NCBI GenBank assembly: GCA_003558065.1
Contig: PWMU01000187.1
Coordinates: 1 to 64,000 of the forward strand
DNA: 64,000 bases
Reading direction: 5' to 3'
DNA from: Opitutia bacterium
GTDB lineage: Bacteria > Verrucomicrobiota > Verrucomicrobiia > Opitutales > T3Sed10-336
The notes beneath the pieces are model-generated. The model saw nothing but the letters and a program-made list of their open reading frames with translations. It was not told the DNA's origin and searched no databases. Of this stretch, positions 34,883 to 53,131 are shown piece after piece. Each line of letters starts with the position of its first letter. Positions within the stretch are counted from its first letter, which is position 1. The translations under genes were made by a program, and so were the position numbers.

Positions 34883-35980
34883 ATGGGCAATCAAATCTTT
34901 AACGATCTCCTCAGGCTTGCCGCGGACAACGGGGCGAGCGACGTTCACGTGAAGTCCGGAAAACCGGCACTGCTGCGCATAGAAGGCAAGCTGCAGGAGG
35001 TGGAAATGGACCGGATCACCGAAGATCAGGCGCTTGATTTTCTCGACACGATTCTGGCCGAATCGTTCAAGGCGCGCTGGGAGGAGGAAGGGCAGATTGA
35101 TTTCGGTCACACGGTCGAAGGGATCGGCCGGTTCCGCGTGGCCGCTTTCCGGCAGCGCGGGACAGTGACGATCGTTTTCCGGTACGTTAAGAATGAGATT
35201 CCCACGTTTGAGTCGCTCAACCTGGAAGCCCCGGTACTGACCAGGCTCTGCAAGGCCCGCGACGGCATCATCATTGTCAGCGGCGCCACCGGATCCGGAA
35301 AAAGTTCCACCCTGGCGGCGATGCTGAACTGGATGAACGGGCATGTGCAGAAGCACATCATTACCCTCGAGGATCCGATGGAGTACAATTTCCCCGACAA
35401 GGAGTGCGTCTTCAACCAGCGTGAGATCGGGATCGACGCGGTGTCGTATTCGCTCGGGCTGATGTCCTCGCTCAGACAGGACCCCGATGCGATTCTCATC
35501 GGGGAAATGCGCGACAAGAACACCTTTGAAACCGCCCTGGCCGCGGCGGAGACCGGGCACCTCGTCATGACGACGCTGCACTCGATCAATGTTCACCAGG
35601 CGGTGATTCGGCTGTTTGAATTCTTCCCCCCCGATCAACAGGAGCAGATGCGCCGCCAGGTTGCCTCGTCGATCCGCGCGATCATCTGTCAGCGCCTGGT
35701 GCCGGCCCTGGAAGGCGGCGGCCGCATCCCGGCAGTGGAGATTCTTGTCGGTGATTCCGTTTCGCGAAATGTTATTCAGGAAGGGAATTTTGAAAAATTG
35801 AACTCCATCATGGATGGGGGCGGAGAATCCGGTTCGCACTCGTTCAACAAGGACCTATTCCGGCTGATCAAAGCGGGCAAGATCAGCAAGTCCGACGGCC
35901 TGGCTTTTTCGCCGAATCCGAAAGCCCTCGAAATGAACCTCAAGGGGATTTTCCAGAGCGAAGGAGGCATCATCGGGTGA
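34883..35980 (+). CDS. PilT/PilU-family type IV pilus retraction ATPase
   Basis: The 365-residue protein has an N-terminal PAS-like domain (LLRLAADNGASDVHVKSGKP) and a secretion-ATPase core: Walker A GATGSGKSS (134-142), Asp box LEDPMEYNF, Walker B LRQDPDAILIGEMRD and His box GHLVMTTLHSINVHQA. GATGSGKS, CQRLVP and the long C-terminus ending KGIFQSEGG are closer to PilU than to PilT. Such hexameric motors depolymerise pilin for twitching. Its stop overlaps the GTG start of lepA by 4 bp. pilC lies about 10 kb away. Confidence 0.88.
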   Translation: MGNQIFNDLLRLAADNGASDVHVKSGKPALLRIEGKLQEVEMDRITEDQALDFLDTILAESFKARWEEEGQIDFGHTVEGIGRFRVAAFRQRGTVTIVFRYVKNEIPTFESLNLEAPVLTRLCKARDGIIIVSGATGSGKSSTLAAMLNWMNGHVQKHIITLEDPMEYNFPDKECVFNQREIGIDAVSYSLGLMSSLRQDPDAILIGEMRDKNTFETALAAAETGHLVMTTLHSINVHQAVIRLFEFFPPDQQEQMRRQVASSIRAIICQRLVPALEGGGRIPAVEILVGDSVSRNVIQEGNFEKLNSIMDGGGESGSHSFNKDLFRLIKAGKISKSDGLAFSPNPKALEMNLKGIFQSEGGIIG

Positions 35981-40749: not shown

Positions 40750-43700
40750 TCAGGAAGCGTCCACTTCCTCCACGTCCTTGTAATAGCTTTGGAGCGGGCG
40801 CACTCCGACCCGTTTCTGGCGAACTGCGCGAATGCCGTTAAGCGCCGCGTAGGCACCTGTAATGGTAGTCATGATACACACATTGTGGGCCACGGCGACC
40901 GAACGGATCCGGTTCTCGTCCTGGAGCGGAATCATGCCCGAAGGCGTATTGATAATCATATCGATCTCGTTGTTCTTCAGCATATCGACCACGTTGGGGC
41001 GGCCTTCACTGTATTTGAACAGGCGGTTTACCTCGATACCATGGCCCTGCAGGTACTGTGCGGTTCCGCCGGTGGAATAAATGAGAAAACCGAGATCGCG
41101 AAGTCCCCGGGCGAGATCCACGGCTTTTTCTTTGTCGCTGTCCTTGACGCTCAGGAACACGTTGCCGGATTCCGGGAGTGCGGGCTTCGCGGCCATTTGG
41201 GTCTTCGCAAAGGCAATGCCCAGGTCTTCATCGAGTCCCATCACCTCCCCTGTGCTGCGCATTTCAGGGCTGAGCGCCACCGAGGCACCGGGGAAACGAA
41301 CGAATGGAAAAACGGATTCTTTCACGCACCAATGGCGGGGAATGAGCTCTTCGGTAAAGCCCAGGTCCTTCAATTTCGAACCGGCCATCACCCTCGCCGC
41401 CAATTTCGCCATGGGCACGCCAATGGCTTTGCTTACGAACGGAATGGTTCTCGAGGCGCGGGGATTGACCTCCAGCACATAGAGCTCGTCGTCCTTAATG
41501 GCGAACTGGATGTTCATCAGGCCGACCACGTTCAGTTCTTTAGCCAGCGCGTGCGTGGACTCGCGGACACGGTTGAGCATCGACTCGTCCAGGGTATGCG
41601 GGGGAAGAACCATGGCTGCGTCGCCGCTGTGGACGCCGGCAAATTCGATGTGTTCCAGCATCCCTCCCACCACCGATGTTTCGCCGTCGGCAACACAGTC
41701 GACATCGAGTTCGATGGCGTCTTCCAGAAACTGGTCAATCAGAAGCGGTTTGTCCGGCGACGCCTCGACCGCCTCCCGGACGACCGATCTCAGTTCGTCC
41801 ATGGAATAAACAATGAACATCCCCCTGCCTCCGAGCACGAAGGATGGGCGGAGCAGAACCGGAAATCCGATCTCTTCCGCCCACTTGAAGGCTTCCTCGG
41901 CATCCATCGCAATGGCATTCCGGGGTTGTTTCAGGTCGATCTTCTTCAACACCTCGATGAACTGCTCACGGTCCTCGGCCAGGTCGATCGACTCGGGCGT
42001 GGTACCGATGATCCTCACGCCGTGTTTCTTGAGATCGGTTGCCAGGTTGAGCGGCGTCTGGCCCCCGAACTGCACAATAACGCCCATGCACTTCTCCTGG
42101 TTGTAGACTTCGAGGACATCGTCCAGGGTGAGCGGCTCAAAATAGAGGCGGTCGGAAGTGTCGTAGTCGGTCGAGACGGTTTCGGGATTGGAATTGACCA
42201 TAACGGTCTCGTAGCCGTCCTCGCGGAGGGCGAATGAGGCGTGCACGCAGCAATAATCGAATTCAATCCCCTGCCCGATCCTGTTGGGCCCGCCGCCAAG
42301 AATCATGATTTTCTTCCGATCCGAGGGAATGATTTCGTTCTCGTCGCCGTAAGAGGAGTAGTAATAGGGCGTGAACGCTTCAAACTCCGCCGCACAGGTG
42401 TCCACGAGGCGAAATGTTGTTCGGATATCGAGTTCCTTGCGGCGTTTTCGAACCGCTTCCAGCTCCGCTCCCACCAGGCTCGCTATTTGCCGGTCGGTAA
42501 ACCCGAACTGTTTTGCCCGCCGGAACAGCTCTCCTCCCAGAGAGTCGAGGCTTTCCTGCTTCAGCAACTCTTCCATCTTGTAGATCTCGAAGAGCTGCAT
42601 CAGGAACCAGATATCTATCTTCGTCAGATCCTGGACATCGTCAGGGGAAAGCCCGGCTTTGAAGGCGTAACGAATGTAGAAGATCCGTTCGGCGTTGGGC
42701 CTGATCAATCGGCCCCGGATCGTGTCCATGTCCGGCACGTCGTCGCCGCCGTACTTCCCTCCTCCGCCGAAGCCGCGGGCGCCGATTTCCAGGGAGCGCA
42801 GGGCTTTCTGCATGGACTCGCGGAAGGTGCGTCCGATCGCCATGGCTTCCCCCACGGACTTCATCGAGGAAGTCAGCGTCGTGTCGGCGCCGGCGAACTT
42901 TTCAAAAGTAAACCGCGGAATCTTGGTCACCACGTAATCGATCGTGGGCTCGAAGGAGGCGGGGGTTTCCCTCGTAATATCGTTCCTGAGCTCATCCAGA
43001 GTGTACCCTACCGCGAGCTTGGCCGCAATCTTGGCAATGGGGAAACCGGTCGCTTTCGAGGCAAGGGCGGAACTCCTGGACACGCGGGGATTCATCTCGA
43101 TGACGACCATGCGCCCGGTCTCCGGATCGACGGCAAACTGGATATTACTCCCGCCGGTCTCAACGCCGATCTCCCGGATAACGGCAAAGGAGGCGTCGCG
43201 CATCAACTGGTACTCTTTGTCCGTCAGCGTGAGGGCGGGCGCCACCGTGATGGAATCGCCGGTATGCACGCCCATCGGATCGAAGTTCTCGATCGAACAA
43301 ATGACCACGCACTGGTCCTTGTGATCGCGCATAACCTCCATCTCAAACTCCTTCCAGCCGAGCAGACATTCTTCGATGAGAACCTCGTGCACCGGAGAGA
43401 TGTCCAGTCCGTGAGCGACGACCTCCTCGAACTCCTCCCGGTTGTAGGCGATGCCGCCGCCGGCGCCGCCGAGGGTGTAGCTTGGACGGATAATGAACGG
43501 AAAACCCCCGAGTTCCTTCGTTGCCTCGAGCGCCTCCTGCATGCTCCTGACTCGGGCGGAATGAGCCACATCGAGGCCGATTTTCACCATGGCCTCCTTA
43601 AAGAGCTCCCGGTCTTCGCCCTTCATGATCGCCTCGACCCGGGCGCCGATCAATTCGACATTGTACTTCTCGAGCACGCCGTCTTTGTCGAGGTCGAGCG

Positions 43701-43995
43701 AAAGATTGAGGGCGGTTTGCCCGCCCAGGGTCGGCAGGAGGGCTTCCGGACGTTCCGCCTCGATGATCTTTTCGAGCATTTCCACCGTCAACGGCTCGAT
43801 ATAGGTCACATCGGCGAAATCCGGATCGGTCATTATGGTGGCCGGATTGCTGTTCACCAGGATGACCTTGTACCCCTCTTCTCTCAGGGCTTTACAGGCC
43901 TGGGTCCCGCTGTAGTCAAATTCACAGGCTTGCCCGATGACGATCGGACCGGACCCGACGATAAGAATGCTCTTGATATCAGTACGTTTCGGCAT
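40750..43995 (-). CDS. carB: Carbamoyl-phosphate synthase large subunit
   Basis: I use ATG 43995 ([20 protein letters not shown]), the canonical start, giving 1,081 residues; ATG 44016 and TTG 44043 are in-frame alternatives. Two homologous ATP-grasp halves are complete: [17 protein letters not shown], then [14 protein letters not shown] and later [13 protein letters not shown]. The C-terminal MGS-like allosteric domain includes [16 protein letters not shown]. The enzyme makes carbamoyl phosphate for arginine and pyrimidines with the CarA glutaminase, which is not adjacent. The leader upstream holds a long inverted repeat (44092-44170). Confidence 0.96.
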
Positions 43996-44091
43996 GGATT
44001 TGGATCTCGGAACCATTTGTGGAGAAGAACGGCTGCGGGGCAAGCGTGAAAAGGAACCGCCCTCCCTGAAACGATGTCAACAGCCCGGAAA

Positions 44092-44209: not shown

Positions 44210-45496
44210 CTATTCCAACCCCACCAGCTCGGAAACTCTTGAGGGATCGCACCCAAGAATTTCAGCCGCCTTTTCATCGTCGCCTCCACAAGCGGTCAGA
44301 ACGGTGCGGATATAATGCTTTTCCCTTGGAGCCAGGTACTCTTCCAACGTCGGCCAGTCCTGAAAAGGCCGGACACGGAGCGGAAGCTGGTCGATTTCGA
44401 TAATCCGGTTTTCCGAGGTCGATACGACATTGGAGACGACCTGATCCAATTCGGTCAGGTTTCCCGGCCACCCGTAAGTTGTCAGCGCCTCACTCGCTTC
44501 CTCGGAAAGCTCGATCTGCCTGGCGTCGAAACGCGACGACTTCACCCGGGCTATCCGCGCTTTGAGGATATCGGGAATATCGGCGACGTGTTCCCGCAGC
44601 GGCGGCAGATTCACCGGCAACGTAGCGATCCGGTAGAACAGCTCGTCATTGAAGTCGCCTTCATCCACCTTCTCTTCCAGGTCGATTCTCGAGGAGCAGA
44701 TCAGCCGAAACCGGTTGATGTTGTTCTTGAGGATTCCCACAAGAATCTCCTGGAGTTCGTCGGACAGGACTTCGATATGCTCGAGCAACAGTGTTCCGCC
44801 GGTGGCCTCGCTGATCCACCGCCCCCCCTGGTTGTCACCGCCGAACAGGTTTTCCCTGAAAGCTTCCACATCGGCCGCGGCGCAATCCGCCGAAACCAAT
44901 GATACTTCTTTTCCGTTGCGGCCCCGGTGGAGAATCTCCGCGACGGCTTTTTTCCCGGTACCCGGCTCTCCCTGAAGAAGAACGGGCGTCTGGGAGCCCG
45001 CGAGCTTGGAAATTTGCCGGCGGAGCCGTACGATCTTGTCGCCGCCCCCCGGGAGAATTTCCTCGATTGCGGAATGGGCTGCGCCAGTCGCGGCCGGAGC
45101 CGGATCTCCGGAGGGCCGGGCGGCGCCCTGCACCTTCTTGTAGTCGATGGCGCGGTCGAGCGTCTGAAGAAGCTCGTCGACCTTGAACGGCTTTTTTATG
45201 TAATCAAACGCTCCGTACTTCAGGGCCTTGATGGCGGTATCCGTGCTCGCGTAACCGGTCATCATGATCACCACGCACTGGGGATCGTAAGCCTTCAACT
45301 GCTCCAGAAGCGTAATCCCGTCCATCGGCTGCATCGAAATATCGGCCAGCACCACGTCGTAGGAATCGGACTTGTACAGTGACATGGCCTTCTCGCCATC
45401 CTGTGCGAAAACGGGCTGATGACCGGTCGGCTGAATGACCGCCTCCAGCATCTCGTGGATCGAAGACAGGTCATCTACAATGAGTATGGAAGCCAT
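44210..45496 (-). CDS. NtrC-like response regulator with degenerate AAA+ domain
   Basis: The 428-residue protein has a complete receiver domain: Asp8/Asp9 acidic pocket, phosphoacceptor Asp52 in VVLADISMQPMDG, Thr80 and Lys101. An AAA+ sigma-54 activator-like domain (about 150-325) follows. Its Walker A reads GEPGTGKKAV, the GAFTGA loop that contacts sigma-54 is missing (LFGGDNQGGRW there), and Walker B is GGTLLLEHIE, lacking the usual DE. The Fis-like C-terminus is short (ACGGDDEKAAEILGCDPSR). Sigma-54 activation therefore looks unlikely. It follows pilC by 77 bp, suggesting a pilus-linked role; no kinase is adjacent. Confidence 0.83.
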   Translation of the reverse strand: MASILIVDDLSSIHEMLEAVIQPTGHQPVFAQDGEKAMSLYKSDSYDVVLADISMQPMDGITLLEQLKAYDPQCVVIMMTGYASTDTAIKALKYGAFDYIKKPFKVDELLQTLDRAIDYKKVQGAARPSGDPAPAATGAAHSAIEEILPGGGDKIVRLRRQISKLAGSQTPVLLQGEPGTGKKAVAEILHRGRNGKEVSLVSADCAAADVEAFRENLFGGDNQGGRWISEATGGTLLLEHIEVLSDELQEILVGILKNNINRFRLICSSRIDLEEKVDEGDFNDELFYRIATLPVNLPPLREHVADIPDILKARIARVKSSRFDARQIELSEEASEALTTYGWPGNLTELDQVVSNVVSTSENRIIEIDQLPLRVRPFQDWPTLEEYLAPREKHYIRTVLTACGGDDEKAAEILGCDPSRVSELVGLE

Positions 45497-45573: not shown

Positions 45574-46749
45574 TCAACCCCCCACAACATTCGAGAGTTC
45601 AAAAATGGGCAGGAACATGGCCATAACGATACCGCCGACGATTATCCCGATGATCACGATCATAATCGGCTCAAGAAGGGAGGTGAGGCCCGAGACGGTG
45701 GCATCCACCTCGGTATCGTAAAAATCGGCGACTTTCAGCATCATCCCGTCGACATTGCCCGTCTGCTCCCCGGCGCGAACCATGTGTTTCATCATCGGGG
45801 GAAAATACGGATCCTCGCGCAACACGTCCGAAACCTGGCCGCCCTGGCTGATGTTCTTGCTGATCTCTTTACAGGCCGCCTCCACGTACGTGTTGTCGCT
45901 GGCGGAGGCGACGATCTCGAGAGACCTGAGGATCGGAACCCCGCTCCTGGAAAGAATGGCATAGGTCCGGCAGAACCTGGACAGCGATATTTTCTGCCTC
46001 AACCGGCCGACAATCGGCATTTTCATCAGTAACTGGTCGCGGATACGCCGGCCGCGCTCGGTTGCGAAGAATTTCTTGGCGATGTAGCCCACCGCACCGC
46101 CCGCGAGGATGATGAAAACGATATTGCTTTTGAGGAAGTTGCTGAAATCAATCAGCATCTGGGTGGGTGCGGGCAGTTGTTCCCCGAAGTCCTCAAACAT
46201 CTCGGCAAAGACCGGGATCACGAAGATCAGGAGCACATTGACCAGGATAATAGCCAACCCGATGACAGCGATCGGGTAGGTCATGGCGGACTTGACCTTC
46301 TTGGTCAAAGCCAGGGTGGCCTCGAAATATTCGGCAACCTTCATGAGAATCGGGGCCAGCGCGCCGCTGGCCTCCCCGGCCTCGACCATGGAGACAAACA
46401 GGTTGTTGAACGCCCGCGGGTACTTGCGCGCGGCATCCGAAAGCGGATTCCCGGAAGCGACTTCGTTACGCACGTCGCGGATGATGATCCGAAACACCGG
46501 ATCCTCGGTCTGCTCCATGAGCGCTTCCAGCGAACTCACCATAGGCAGGCCGGCTTCGAGCATGGAGCCGAGCTGCTGTGTGAAGACGGTCAACTCCCCC
46601 AGTTTGAGCTTGTAGTGCTTCGATTTCTTCTCGTAACTACGCTGTTTCGCGAGCCTCTGAGACTCGGCAAAGCTCGTTCTCCGCTTGGGGGCTCCGGAGG
46701 ACGCGGCGGCACCCGGTCTGCTTGAAGATGTTGACGATATGAAGGCCAT
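45574..46749 (-). CDS. pilC: Type IV pilus inner-membrane platform protein PilC (T2SS F family)
   Basis: ATG 46749 gives 391 residues; longer frames would run across the tRNA gene and are rejected. The N-terminus is Ser/Arg-rich. Two T2SSF domains follow, with LGELTVFTQQLGSMLEAGLP in the first and ISLSRFCRTYAILSRSGVP in the second. Three membrane segments are visible (YPIAVIGLAIILVNVLLIF; NIVFIILAGGAVGYIA; IMIVIIGIIVGGIVMAMFLP). PilC anchors the assembly and retraction ATPases at the inner membrane. It precedes the NtrC-like gene. Confidence 0.92.
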   Translation of the reverse strand: MAFISSTSSSRPGAAASSGAPKRRTSFAESQRLAKQRSYEKKSKHYKLKLGELTVFTQQLGSMLEAGLPMVSSLEALMEQTEDPVFRIIIRDVRNEVASGNPLSDAARKYPRAFNNLFVSMVEAGEASGALAPILMKVAEYFEATLALTKKVKSAMTYPIAVIGLAIILVNVLLIFVIPVFAEMFEDFGEQLPAPTQMLIDFSNFLKSNIVFIILAGGAVGYIAKKFFATERGRRIRDQLLMKMPIVGRLRQKISLSRFCRTYAILSRSGVPILRSLEIVASASDNTYVEAACKEISKNISQGGQVSDVLREDPYFPPMMKHMVRAGEQTGNVDGMMLKVADFYDTEVDATVSGLTSLLEPIMIVIIGIIVGGIVMAMFLPIFELSNVVGG

Positions 46750-49761: not shown

Positions 49762-50847
49762 ATGGCGGCAAATAACGAACCATCCATCAGCGTCGACAAT
49801 CTGGTAAAGAAGTACGCGGGTGTCACGGCAGTCAACGAGGTCTCCTTCACCGTGGCAAAAGGCGAGATTATCGGCTTCCTCGGCCCCAACGGCGCCGGGA
49901 AGAGCACGACCATGCGTATCCTCACCGGATTCATTCCCGCCACCTCGGGGACGGTGCATATCTGCGGAATCGACGTCGCCCGTCACCCGGAAAAGATCAA
50001 ACGCCACATCGGGTACATGCCCGAGAACAATCCCCTCCCCGACGACATGCGGGTTCTGGAGTACCTCAAGCTCCGCGGCCGCCTCAAGGGCGTTTCGCGC
50101 CGGAAACTCCGTTCCCGCCTCGATGAGGTGCTCGAGGTCTGCGATCTCAAGCGGGCCTCCCGCCGCATCATCGGCACGCTTTCCAAGGGTTACCGGCAGC
50201 GGGTGGGGATTGCCGACAGCATCCTGGCCGAACCGGAAGTCATCATCATGGACGAACCGACCATCGGTCTGGATCCCCACCAGATTGTGATGATCCGGGA
50301 TCTTATCGCCGGCCTGCGCGGCAAAATGAGCATTCTCATCTCCAGCCATATTCTGCCCGAGATTGAAATGACCTGCGACCGGGTCGTCATCATCAACGGC
50401 GGTCGTGTCGTTGCCGCCAATACCCCCCGGAACCTCCGGCGGGAATTCATACCTGAAAAAACCTACGTGGCTGAACTCCAGGGATCCCGGGACGGCCTTT
50501 TTTCCGCGCTCGATCGCGCAGGCCTCGATCTTTCGATCGAATCGATCAGCGACGGCGAAAACAACGGGTTTTTCACCGCCACCTTTTCCACGAAAAACGA
50601 AGAAGAAGTCGGCGAGAGCCTTGCCGAGGCTCTGCTGGCGGGCCGCAGGTACAGGCTGCGCTCTCTCAAGAGATGCGAACCCACTCTGGAAGAGGTTTTT
50701 ATGGCGGCTACGCGACGGAGCTGGGACGTGCTGATGCCCGACCCGAAACCGAAGCCAAAGAAAGACCGGGACCCTGACAACGGCGGTGGCGCCCCGTCGT
50801 CTTCCCCGGAACGCGACTCCTCTCCCACTCCGACGCCATCCACCTGA
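49762..50847 (+). CDS. ABC transporter ATP-binding protein (GldA-like)
   Basis: The 361-residue ATPase has Walker A GPNGAGKST (41-49), a Q-loop region GYMPENNPLPDD, signature LSKGYRQRVG (140-149) and Walker B EVIIMDEPTIGL (159-170). A C-terminal extension of about 55 residues is Pro/Asp-rich and looks disordered. With the permease and the GldG-like protein it forms a transporter of the type linked to gliding or envelope functions; its cargo is unknown. It leads a five-gene rightward locus. Confidence 0.88.
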   Translation: MAANNEPSISVDNLVKKYAGVTAVNEVSFTVAKGEIIGFLGPNGAGKSTTMRILTGFIPATSGTVHICGIDVARHPEKIKRHIGYMPENNPLPDDMRVLEYLKLRGRLKGVSRRKLRSRLDEVLEVCDLKRASRRIIGTLSKGYRQRVGIADSILAEPEVIIMDEPTIGLDPHQIVMIRDLIAGLRGKMSILISSHILPEIEMTCDRVVIINGGRVVAANTPRNLRREFIPEKTYVAELQGSRDGLFSALDRAGLDLSIESISDGENNGFFTATFSTKNEEEVGESLAEALLAGRRYRLRSLKRCEPTLEEVFMAATRRSWDVLMPDPKPKPKKDRDPDNGGGAPSSSPERDSSPTPTPST

Positions 50848-50887
50848 ACGCCGCTTTTCACTCGGACTTTCCGGATTCATCTCAATC

Positions 50888-51649
50888 ATGCGACACTTCG
50901 GCACTCTCCTAAGACACGAAATCAGGATCCTCTGCTACGCCCCGGCGACCTACATTGCCGCTTTCCTGTTCCTCATCGTCATGGGATCCCTGTTCCAGTG
51001 GGTTATCGAGACTTACAACCAGGGAACCCAGGAAACCATCCCCTGGGTGGTTTTCTTCCAGCTTTTCTGGCTGCCCGTCTTTTTCATGGTCCCGCTTCTG
51101 ACGATGAAGAGTTTTTCCGAGGAAAAGCGGCTCGGCACCCTCGAGAATCTGATGACCACCCCCGCCGGCACAGCGGAGATTGTTCTCGCCAAGTTTTTCT
51201 CGGCCTATCTGCTCTATCTCCTTTTGTGGGGCATCACTATCGGGTTTAACTTCATCCTCTTCCATTTCGCCCAGGATCCGCGTCTCATCGAAACGGGCCC
51301 CCTTCTCGGCGGATTCATTTTCTCCGCGCTCAGCGGCCTGCTTTTCATCGCCACGGGCATTTTCGCGAGCACAGTGACCCGCAGTCAGCTGGTCGCGGGG
51401 ATTCTCACGTTTTCCCTTCTTTTCGGGATGATTATCGGAAGCCGCTATCTCTCGGAACTCAAACAGTTGGAAACCGCCTACTCGGTGACGCTCCGCAACT
51501 GGATCGACACGCTGCAGATATTTCAGCATGCGGAAGACCTCAGTCGCGGAGTGGTCGATACGCGCGCGATTTTCTTTTATATTTTTGGAGCCACGCTGAT
51601 GCTCACCTTCAGCACGCTGGTGATTCGAAGCAAGATTTGGAGAGGTTGA
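50888..51649 (+). CDS. ABC-2 type permease (GldF-like)
   Basis: From ATG 50888 the protein has 253 residues and six hydrophobic segments, for example TYIAAFLFLIVMGSLFQW and LLWGITIGFNFILF. KSFSEEKRLGTLENLMTTP is the cytoplasmic motif of the ABC-2/GldF permease family. It pairs with the ATPase upstream, 40 bp away, and the GldG-like protein downstream. No earlier in-frame start has a better ribosome site. Confidence 0.87.
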   Translation: MRHFGTLLRHEIRILCYAPATYIAAFLFLIVMGSLFQWVIETYNQGTQETIPWVVFFQLFWLPVFFMVPLLTMKSFSEEKRLGTLENLMTTPAGTAEIVLAKFFSAYLLYLLLWGITIGFNFILFHFAQDPRLIETGPLLGGFIFSALSGLLFIATGIFASTVTRSQLVAGILTFSLLFGMIIGSRYLSELKQLETAYSVTLRNWIDTLQIFQHAEDLSRGVVDTRAIFFYIFGATLMLTFSTLVIRSKIWRG

Positions 51650-51652
51650 TTG

Positions 51653-53131
51653 ATGAAAGAGAAAAAGGATTTCACCTATTATCGCTGGATCAACGCCCTT
51701 AACACCGCCCTGCAGGGCGTGCTGGCGCTCCTCCTTTTCGCCGGCGGCATGCACCTGGCATCAAAGTATTTCTGGCGCACGGACCTGACCGAGAACCACC
51801 GGTATTCGCTCTCCGCGGAAACGCTCTCTTATCTCGAGAATCTCGAGACACCGGTCAAAGTGATTGTGACCCTGTCGTCGGAAGGGGTGACGGACGAACT
51901 GGATCCCGTCTACCAGGATGTCCGCGCCCTGCTTCGGGAGTACGAGTATGCGGTGCGAAACAATTCGAAAGCCAGCTTCGACGTCGAGTTCGTCAACATC
52001 TTTCAACAACGCAAGCAAGCACAGCTCATCGCGCAGGAATACGGTGTTGAGCAGGAGAACCTCATCATCTTCGCCACCGAAGACAAGCAGCGCATCGTGT
52101 TCCCGAACGAGCTTTATCAAACCAGGGACCGCAAGCGGAAAAATTTCCGGGGTGAGCAGGTCTTTACTTCAGCGGTGCTCGACATTTCCCGCGAAGAACA
52201 AAACACGATCTATTTCATTACCGGACACGGAGAGATGCGCTTTGACGACACCGACCCCAACCGGGGCCTTTCCCAGCTCGGCGACGCGCTCAAGCAACGA
52301 AACTTCGTCCTCCGCAACCTGGACCTTACGGAAGTGGACCAAGTGCCCGAGGACGCCGACCTCCTCATGCTCCTGTCCCCCCGCTCGGCGCTGCTGTCCC
52401 GGGAAGAAGAGCTCCTTCGCCGCTACCTTTCAAACGAGGCGGGAAAGCTGATTGCGATGATCGACCCGGGCAGGCGGCACGGATTGGGAGAATTGTTTTA
52501 CGAATGGGGCATCCTCCTGGACGACGTCGTGATCCTCGATACCGGCCCCGACTCGCTGGCCGGAGGGGGCGACCTCGTCCTGCACCGCTACGGCGACCAT
52601 CCCATCACCCGCAGCCTGTACGAAAACAGACTGCGCCTGATCACGGGCTTGAGCCGTTCCGCCCGGCCGGACCCCGGCCGGGCGCTGGACGACTCCCTGT
52701 CGGTCAAGCCGCTGGTCTTCACTTCCGACACCAGCTGGGGCGAACGCTCTTACAGGCAGGACAAGAACTTCGTGTACGATCCCGAATCGGACCTGGAAGG
52801 CCCTCTCAGTATCGCGACCGTTTCCGAGCGTCAGATCCCGTCTCAACTCGGCATCAACATCCCCGGCGGCCGTGTGGTCGTATTCGGGACCTCCGACCTG
52901 ATTTCCAACAATCGGATCAACTCCCTTGGCAACCTGACGCTTTTTCTCAACTCGATCAACTGGATGATCGACCACGACGGCATGACCAACATCCCCCCCC
53001 GCCCCATCGACGATCTTCAGCTTGTCTTGACTCGCGAAAACATCAATCATCTGCGATTGACCCTTCTCGGTATCCTTCCCGGCATTGTCGCTTTGTCCGG
53101 GATCATTATTTACTGGGTACGAAGAAAGTAA
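51653..53131 (+). CDS. GldG-like ABC transporter auxiliary protein
   Basis: ATG 51653 has GGAGAGG seven bases upstream. The 492-residue protein has a membrane segment near residues 14-32 and another at the C-terminus (LTLLGILPGIVALSGIIIYW). The large periplasmic part matches the GldG/ABC-type auxiliary domain (TDLTENHRYSLSAETLSYLE, then ITGHGEMRFDDTDPNRG and DLLMLLSPRSALLSREE). It starts 3 bp after the permease stop. In Bacteroidetes GldG is needed for gliding; in other phyla its role is unclear. Confidence 0.87.
   Translation: MKEKKDFTYYRWINALNTALQGVLALLLFAGGMHLASKYFWRTDLTENHRYSLSAETLSYLENLETPVKVIVTLSSEGVTDELDPVYQDVRALLREYEYAVRNNSKASFDVEFVNIFQQRKQAQLIAQEYGVEQENLIIFATEDKQRIVFPNELYQTRDRKRKNFRGEQVFTSAVLDISREEQNTIYFITGHGEMRFDDTDPNRGLSQLGDALKQRNFVLRNLDLTEVDQVPEDADLLMLLSPRSALLSREEELLRRYLSNEAGKLIAMIDPGRRHGLGELFYEWGILLDDVVILDTGPDSLAGGGDLVLHRYGDHPITRSLYENRLRLITGLSRSARPDPGRALDDSLSVKPLVFTSDTSWGERSYRQDKNFVYDPESDLEGPLSIATVSERQIPSQLGINIPGGRVVVFGTSDLISNNRINSLGNLTLFLNSINWMIDHDGMTNIPPRPIDDLQLVLTRENINHLRLTLLGILPGIVALSGIIIYWVRRK

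Follow-up and report, generated by a model that had tools for sequence, protein, structure and literature searches.

A pilC-linked NtrC-type response regulator family in Opitutales with an intact receiver and degenerate sigma-54 machinery

What does an NtrC-type response regulator (RR) encoded beside a type IV pilus gene do when the parts that engage sigma-54 RNA polymerase have decayed? The window analyzed here is a 64,000-nucleotide stretch of DNA from an Opitutia bacterium (contig PWMU01000187.1, positions 1 to 64,000), and we confirmed in it the open reading frame of a 428-aa NtrC-type RR belonging to the order Opitutales (Verrucomicrobiota). A first-pass annotation of the DNA had described a phosphorylation-switched protein with eroded sigma-54 machinery that might serve pili or motility as a scaffold or DNA-binding protein. 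Coordinates of the gene, its parts, and its neighbors are listed in Table 1.

Table 1. Features of the RR gene and its immediate neighbors in the window, with the evidence for each.
Feature	Coordinates	Strand	Evidence
Whole RR gene: receiver, pseudo-AAA, truncated Fis; 428 aa	44210..45496	-	ATG start; 90 orthologues
Receiver domain, residues 1-118, intact D8/D9, D52, T80, K102	45143..45496	-	Pfam match; orthologue alignment
Asp52 codon, putative phospho-acceptor	45341..45343	-	Asp in 89/89 orthologues having a residue there
Degenerate AAA core, residues 148-300	44597..45055	-	Sigma54_activ_2 and Sigma54_activat matches; fold model
Walker A GEPGTGKK, residues 176-183, GxxGxGK retained	44948..44971	-	Orthologue alignment
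Deleted L1/GAFTGA loop site, LFGGDNQGGRW, residues 217-227	44816..44848	-	Absent in 90/90
Former Walker B GGTLLLEH, residues 233-240, without Asp-Glu pair	44777..44800	-	Asp-Glu in 0/90
Former arginine-finger segment FNDELFYR, residues 282-289, first Arg gone	44630..44653	-	Orthologue alignment
Former sensor II WPGNLTEL, residues 343-350, Arg gone	44447..44470	-	Arg in 1/90
Fis-like C-terminal stub, residues 377-428, with degenerate or shortened recognition helix	44213..44368	-	HTH_8 below cut-off; C-termini compared
pilC (type IV pilus platform protein), immediately upstream of RR	45574..46749	-	77-bp gap, same strand, no terminator-like site
carB (carbamoyl-phosphate synthase large chain), conserved downstream neighbor, probably functionally unrelated	40750..44043	-	Neighborhood comparison

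The receiver matches the Pfam family Response_reg (9e-28, residues 4–113), and its signature residues (acid pair, phospho-Asp, Thr/Ser, and Lys) are all in place. Among 90 orthologues, Asp52 is found in all 89 that have a residue there and Lys102 in every one, while position 80 is Thr in 81 and Ser in 9; Asp52 is accordingly conserved as a predicted phosphorylation site of the whole family. The first-pass annotation was right to call the receiver intact and to name Asp52 and Thr80; the conserved lysine is residue 102, not 101. The same genome also encodes a paralogue, present among the relatives only here (L007:1075–2385, reverse strand, contig C5). It is 57% identical to the window RR, has a dead receiver (D52R, D8N, K102I), and does not adjoin pilC.

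The central region has matches to degenerate sigma-54 interaction domains (PF14532 and PF00158, both above cut-off) and to AAA_lid_14, indicating an AAA fold of sigma-54 interaction domain ancestry; PF00158 scores 78 bits, vs. 242 in a canonical relative (L097). The L1 loop with its GAFTGA motif, previously noted as lost, has been deleted outright rather than mutated, and no orthologue has it. Walker B reads GGTLLLEH vs. GGTLFLDE in NtrC proteins, and its Asp-Glu pair is missing family-wide. Losses that it did not list are those of the first arginine finger (FNDELFYR vs. canonical FREDLYYR; present in 0/90), the sensor-II Arg (WPGNLTEL vs. canonical WPGNVREL), and the recognition helix. Its reading of Walker A as eroded overstates the damage in the window RR, where the GxxGxGK core is kept and only the last residue of GEPGTGKK departs from the usual Glu. 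Across the orthologues the Lys position is occupied by Lys in 69 and swapped in 21 (His in 13, Arg in 8). Overall, the motif losses imply that ATPase activity would be gone from the RR family.

The conservation of these losses across 90 orthologues strongly supports the earlier view that the protein is not a sigma-54 activator. Besides rpoN, the genome itself (4.13 Mb, 97% complete) encodes five or more canonical enhancer-binding proteins, so that the sigma-54 machinery missing from the RR protein has not been lost organism-wide. The presence of these genes would also suit an activator that uses substitute residues, and expression of some sigma-54 genes reportedly rises with a GAFTGA-less, HTH-mutant Caulobacter NtrC (PMC12421884). 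We nevertheless find such an activator very hard to credit here, given that the L1 loop, Walker B pair, first arginine finger, and (with one exception) sensor-II Arg are gone throughout the orthologues, and that no −24/−12 sigma-54 site was found near pilC. Among its checks the annotation had proposed looking for rpoN and sigma-54 promoters; the search found the first in the genome and none of the second near pilC.

The predicted structure of the window RR (pLDDT 88.6) had NtrX as its top Foldseek match, with NtrC1, LuxO, NtrC4, and VpsR also among the best; the full-length rmsd of these matches is large because the domain arrangement differs. The AAA domains of FleQ and PspF were matched as well (TM 0.73–0.79 of target). 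No NCBIfam model reached its cut-off among the matches listed, the NtrX model NF051870 scoring 203.8 bits vs. a cut-off of 600. In domain order, fold (Foldseek and phmmer matches), and intact receiver, the RR resembles NtrC1/NtrC4-type enhancer-binding proteins, from which it differs in the four missing AAA elements and the short recognition helix.

Loss of sigma-54 contact need not mean loss of DNA binding, as there are documented NtrC-family proteins without GAFTGA that work at promoters of the sigma-70 type (PMC3162934, PMC12421884, PMC10274813). With NtrC of Rhodobacter capsulatus or Caulobacter, TyrR, and VpsR as precedents, the RR could be a DNA-binding regulator of this sigma-70 type that has lost nothing but sigma-54 contact, possibly a repressor of pilC or of further pilus genes; the rank of NtrX among the Foldseek matches and a short third C-terminal helix kept in the window model (residues 418–426) point the same way. 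NtrX and the GAFTGA-less NtrC of Rhodobacter and Caulobacter do, like the RR, combine a receiver with an AAA domain lacking GAFTGA, but they keep a working helix-turn-helix and act on transcription. The C-terminus of the RR family looks different. HTH_8 scores 18.2 bits in the window RR, below the 22-bit cut-off, over profile positions 3–31 of 42, and 18–25 bits in the family, whose matches end at positions 31–35, vs. 36.7 bits in canonical L097. The typical C-terminus is LGVDVSKLG*, whereas canonical Fis domains run on through the recognition helix (LGISRRTLHRKL...), and the Fis domain is wholly missing from two lineages (L021/L022, 376–377 aa; L210–L213, 374 aa), representing two separate losses on the tree. 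A working Fis helix-turn-helix is not apparent in the RR family sequences, DNA recognition has most probably been lost, and we rate a sigma-70-type regulator as rather unlikely. Between the scaffold and the DNA-binding protein first proposed, a scaffold or other protein–protein role is favored.

Three longer members (L208, L209, and L222; 525–528 aa) have an extra, coiled-coil-like tail, which in the AlphaFold2 model of L208 is a single 78-residue helix (446–523). FrzS of Myxococcus is laid out as a receiver plus coil, and these L208-type members resemble it. The helical tail or coil of the family may dimerize.

Orthologues of the RR occur in 81 of 373 Opitutales genomes, and in a phylum-wide sample of 388 genomes all 29 matches fall within the same order. 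A pattern-based scan of species genomes gave relatives with identities falling from 48% to 35%, the last being a canonical protein; viral contigs contained no relatives. The 90 distinct orthologues and the one paralogue form a single clade against 51 canonical proteins (SH-aLRT 100). Mean pairwise identity among the 62 closest orthologues is 0.80 for the receiver, 0.59 for the AAA core, and 0.54 for the tail, compared with 0.40, 0.57, and 0.32 in canonical NtrC proteins; as the canonical set is phylogenetically broader, the fair comparison is the ratio inside each set. By that measure the receiver is far more conserved than the AAA core, the reverse of the canonical situation. The near-invariant, most constrained receiver supports the earlier suggestion of a phosphorylation-switched protein. 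Purifying selection is seen on the AAA part as well (dN/dS 0.02–0.26 in 14 pairs, one pair being saturated, vs. 0.00–0.09 in 15 pairs for the receiver), so the gene is functional and no pseudogene, and because the pattern recurs in 90 orthologues, the degeneration is not due to chance. Pseudogenization or erosion in a single genome is ruled out on both grounds. The 59% conservation of the AAA core says that this domain still does something.

The link to pilC, reported from this one locus, holds across the family: pilC is immediately upstream on the same strand in 87 of the 88 orthologues with readable upstream sequence (median gap 78 nt), and in the lone exception (L055, genome G004) pilC sits on another contig. 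Among the 373 genomes, the RR and the adjacent-type pilC occur together in 75, the RR alone in 6, and that pilC alone in 55. The Fisher value for these counts takes no account of relatedness, and we do not read it as a probability. In three of the six RR-alone genomes pilC is in place but interrupted or below the score cut-off, in one it is masked by N, and in two the gene lies at a contig edge. Conversely, six genomes of RR-bearing families lack both the RR and the adjacent-type pilC, four of them retaining a second-type PilC (38–41% identical); because neighboring genes can go in one deletion, this co-loss is weaker than it appears. PilC does not need the RR, since it is found without it in sister families. 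Two genomes (G020 and G015) have just the RR-adjacent-type pilC plus a remote GspF-like one (22–25% identical). In an f14 genome with pilC and no RR match (G212), a broken RR gene is still in place (L232:1764–2516, forward strand). A break near the start of the receiver interrupts this gene, which also lacks the lid and the latter half of the AAA part.

Scans for sigma-70 promoters and terminators gave chance-level results. Throughout the order, PilC of the RR-adjacent type lacks the usual N-terminal domain of ~65 residues and has a short basic stretch instead (SQxLAKQKxxEKKAKxYKL), with or without the RR. We asked whether this truncation complements the RR and rejected the idea, since it is common to sister lineages that lack the RR and so is unspecific. 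Elsewhere in the window, a PilT-type ATPase gene precedes lepA and lepB (34883–35980, forward strand), ~10 kb from pilC, and genes for an ABC transporter ATPase, a permease, and a GldG-like protein, named by inspection only, lie in a row at 49762–53131 (forward strand).

The gene behind pilC takes other forms in sister lineages. In six f21 genomes (L236, L249, L253, L254, L257, and L258) it encodes a protein of 173–186 aa in which the receiver is joined directly to a Fis stub, with no AAA domain between them. The stub of L236 is 44% identical over 45 residues to window residues 373–417, and HTH_8 scores 19.9 bits in L258. In a receiver tree of 124 columns, with an outgroup lacking single-domain or RegA-type receivers, these proteins nest inside the RR family, apart from canonical receivers (100/98); the hhalign comparison of the AAA-less forms spans the receiver only. 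It looks as though the AAA domain is dispensable in f21 and the receiver is the essential piece, and the emphasis that the first-pass annotation placed on the AAA part was probably off. A receiver-only gene of 130 aa follows pilC in one further genome (G046), as a less certain case.

No histidine kinase is encoded beside the RR gene. Kinases do occur directly behind pilC in other genomes: a soluble HATPase_c protein, next to which no response regulator was found, in four f22-g51 genomes (G088, G147, G184, and G191; L238:1642–2529, forward strand, without a HisKA match in L238; also L264, L270, and L271), and a 253-aa HisKA protein in another (G009; L136:2698–3459, forward strand). Neither has a good homologue in RR-bearing genomes, so that neither is supported as the cognate kinase. 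Many other sister genomes have no signaling gene after pilC. Two-component signaling is a recurring theme behind the RR-adjacent-type pilC, the receiver being the constant element wherever the RR family occurs.

With the sigma-54 and ATPase parts lost, the receiver intact and under the strongest constraint, and pilC consistently adjacent, we consider the RR to be probably a non-transcriptional, phosphorylation-switched partner of the PilC-based pilus. This Opitutales-specific family would have arisen from an NtrC-type enhancer-binding protein, losing the ability to contact sigma-54, to hydrolyze ATP, and, in all likelihood, to recognize DNA. It would have kept a receiver open to phosphorylation, a body with an inert AAA fold, and a helical tail perhaps still able to dimerize. 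A histidine kinase not linked to the RR gene would phosphorylate Asp52, and the altered receiver or dimer state would, by protein contact, affect the assembly, motor exchange, or localization of the type IV pilus apparatus based on the neighboring PilC. Counting against this reading are the conservation of the AAA core, the occurrence of PilC without the RR in sister families, and the absence of a kinase gene beside the RR. That the PilC-based machinery is the direct target, with the RR touching either PilC or the motor at the base of the pilus, is a tentative conjecture; details of PilC's own role remain unknown (PMC11656802).

The same receiver could instead switch pilus motility through different partners, be it polarity proteins, a second-messenger enzyme, or a kinase for which it serves as phosphate sink, with the pilC linkage reflecting co-expression only. 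PilG/PilH, PdeR, and FrzS affect pili by such non-PilC routes (PMC11656802, PMC1974792), and a receiver that is the most conserved part would fit. We regard this as unlikely because the RR tracks one PilC and not other pilus loci such as the pilB-pilT-pilB-pilC locus near rpoN in the same genome (L184, contig C31).

Known systems share parts of the layout of a PilC-linked, non-transcriptional switch. FlgR of Helicobacter is likewise an NtrC-type protein without a C-terminal DNA-binding domain and tied to a motility organelle (PMC9696931), but it activates sigma-54 polymerase, for which the RR family lacks the needed parts. FrzS is a receiver protein that does not bind DNA and that type IV pilus motility requires; its receiver, unlike that of the RR, has no phospho-Asp (PMC1974792). 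FrzS also has no AAA domain. PilG/PilH and PdeR feed phosphorylation signals into type IV pili (PMC11656802), but their outputs are chemosensory or through c-di-GMP, and they do not derive from enhancer-binding proteins. In the open-licence papers searched, we found no description of the RR family, nor of any protein tied to PilC in which the receiver is intact and the abilities to contact sigma-54 and to recognize DNA are both gone.

It is possible, at somewhat less than even chances, that Opitutales turned a transcription activator into a dedicated PilC phosphorylation switch, placing two-component signaling directly at the pilus base. The parts would have been shed in stages, the ATPase, sigma-54 loop, and recognition helix going first; lineages would then have dropped either the entire Fis domain or the entire AAA domain, or acquired a coiled coil. 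Automatic annotation would label these genes sigma-54-dependent transcription regulators, which their sequences argue against. The family amounts to a natural experiment in which an AAA+ activator has been dismantled and its switch domain kept, with several stages preserved in living lineages. Two-component input to pilus motors is known mainly via second messengers, chemosensory proteins, and transcription, and a PilC-linked receiver offers a testable direct route.
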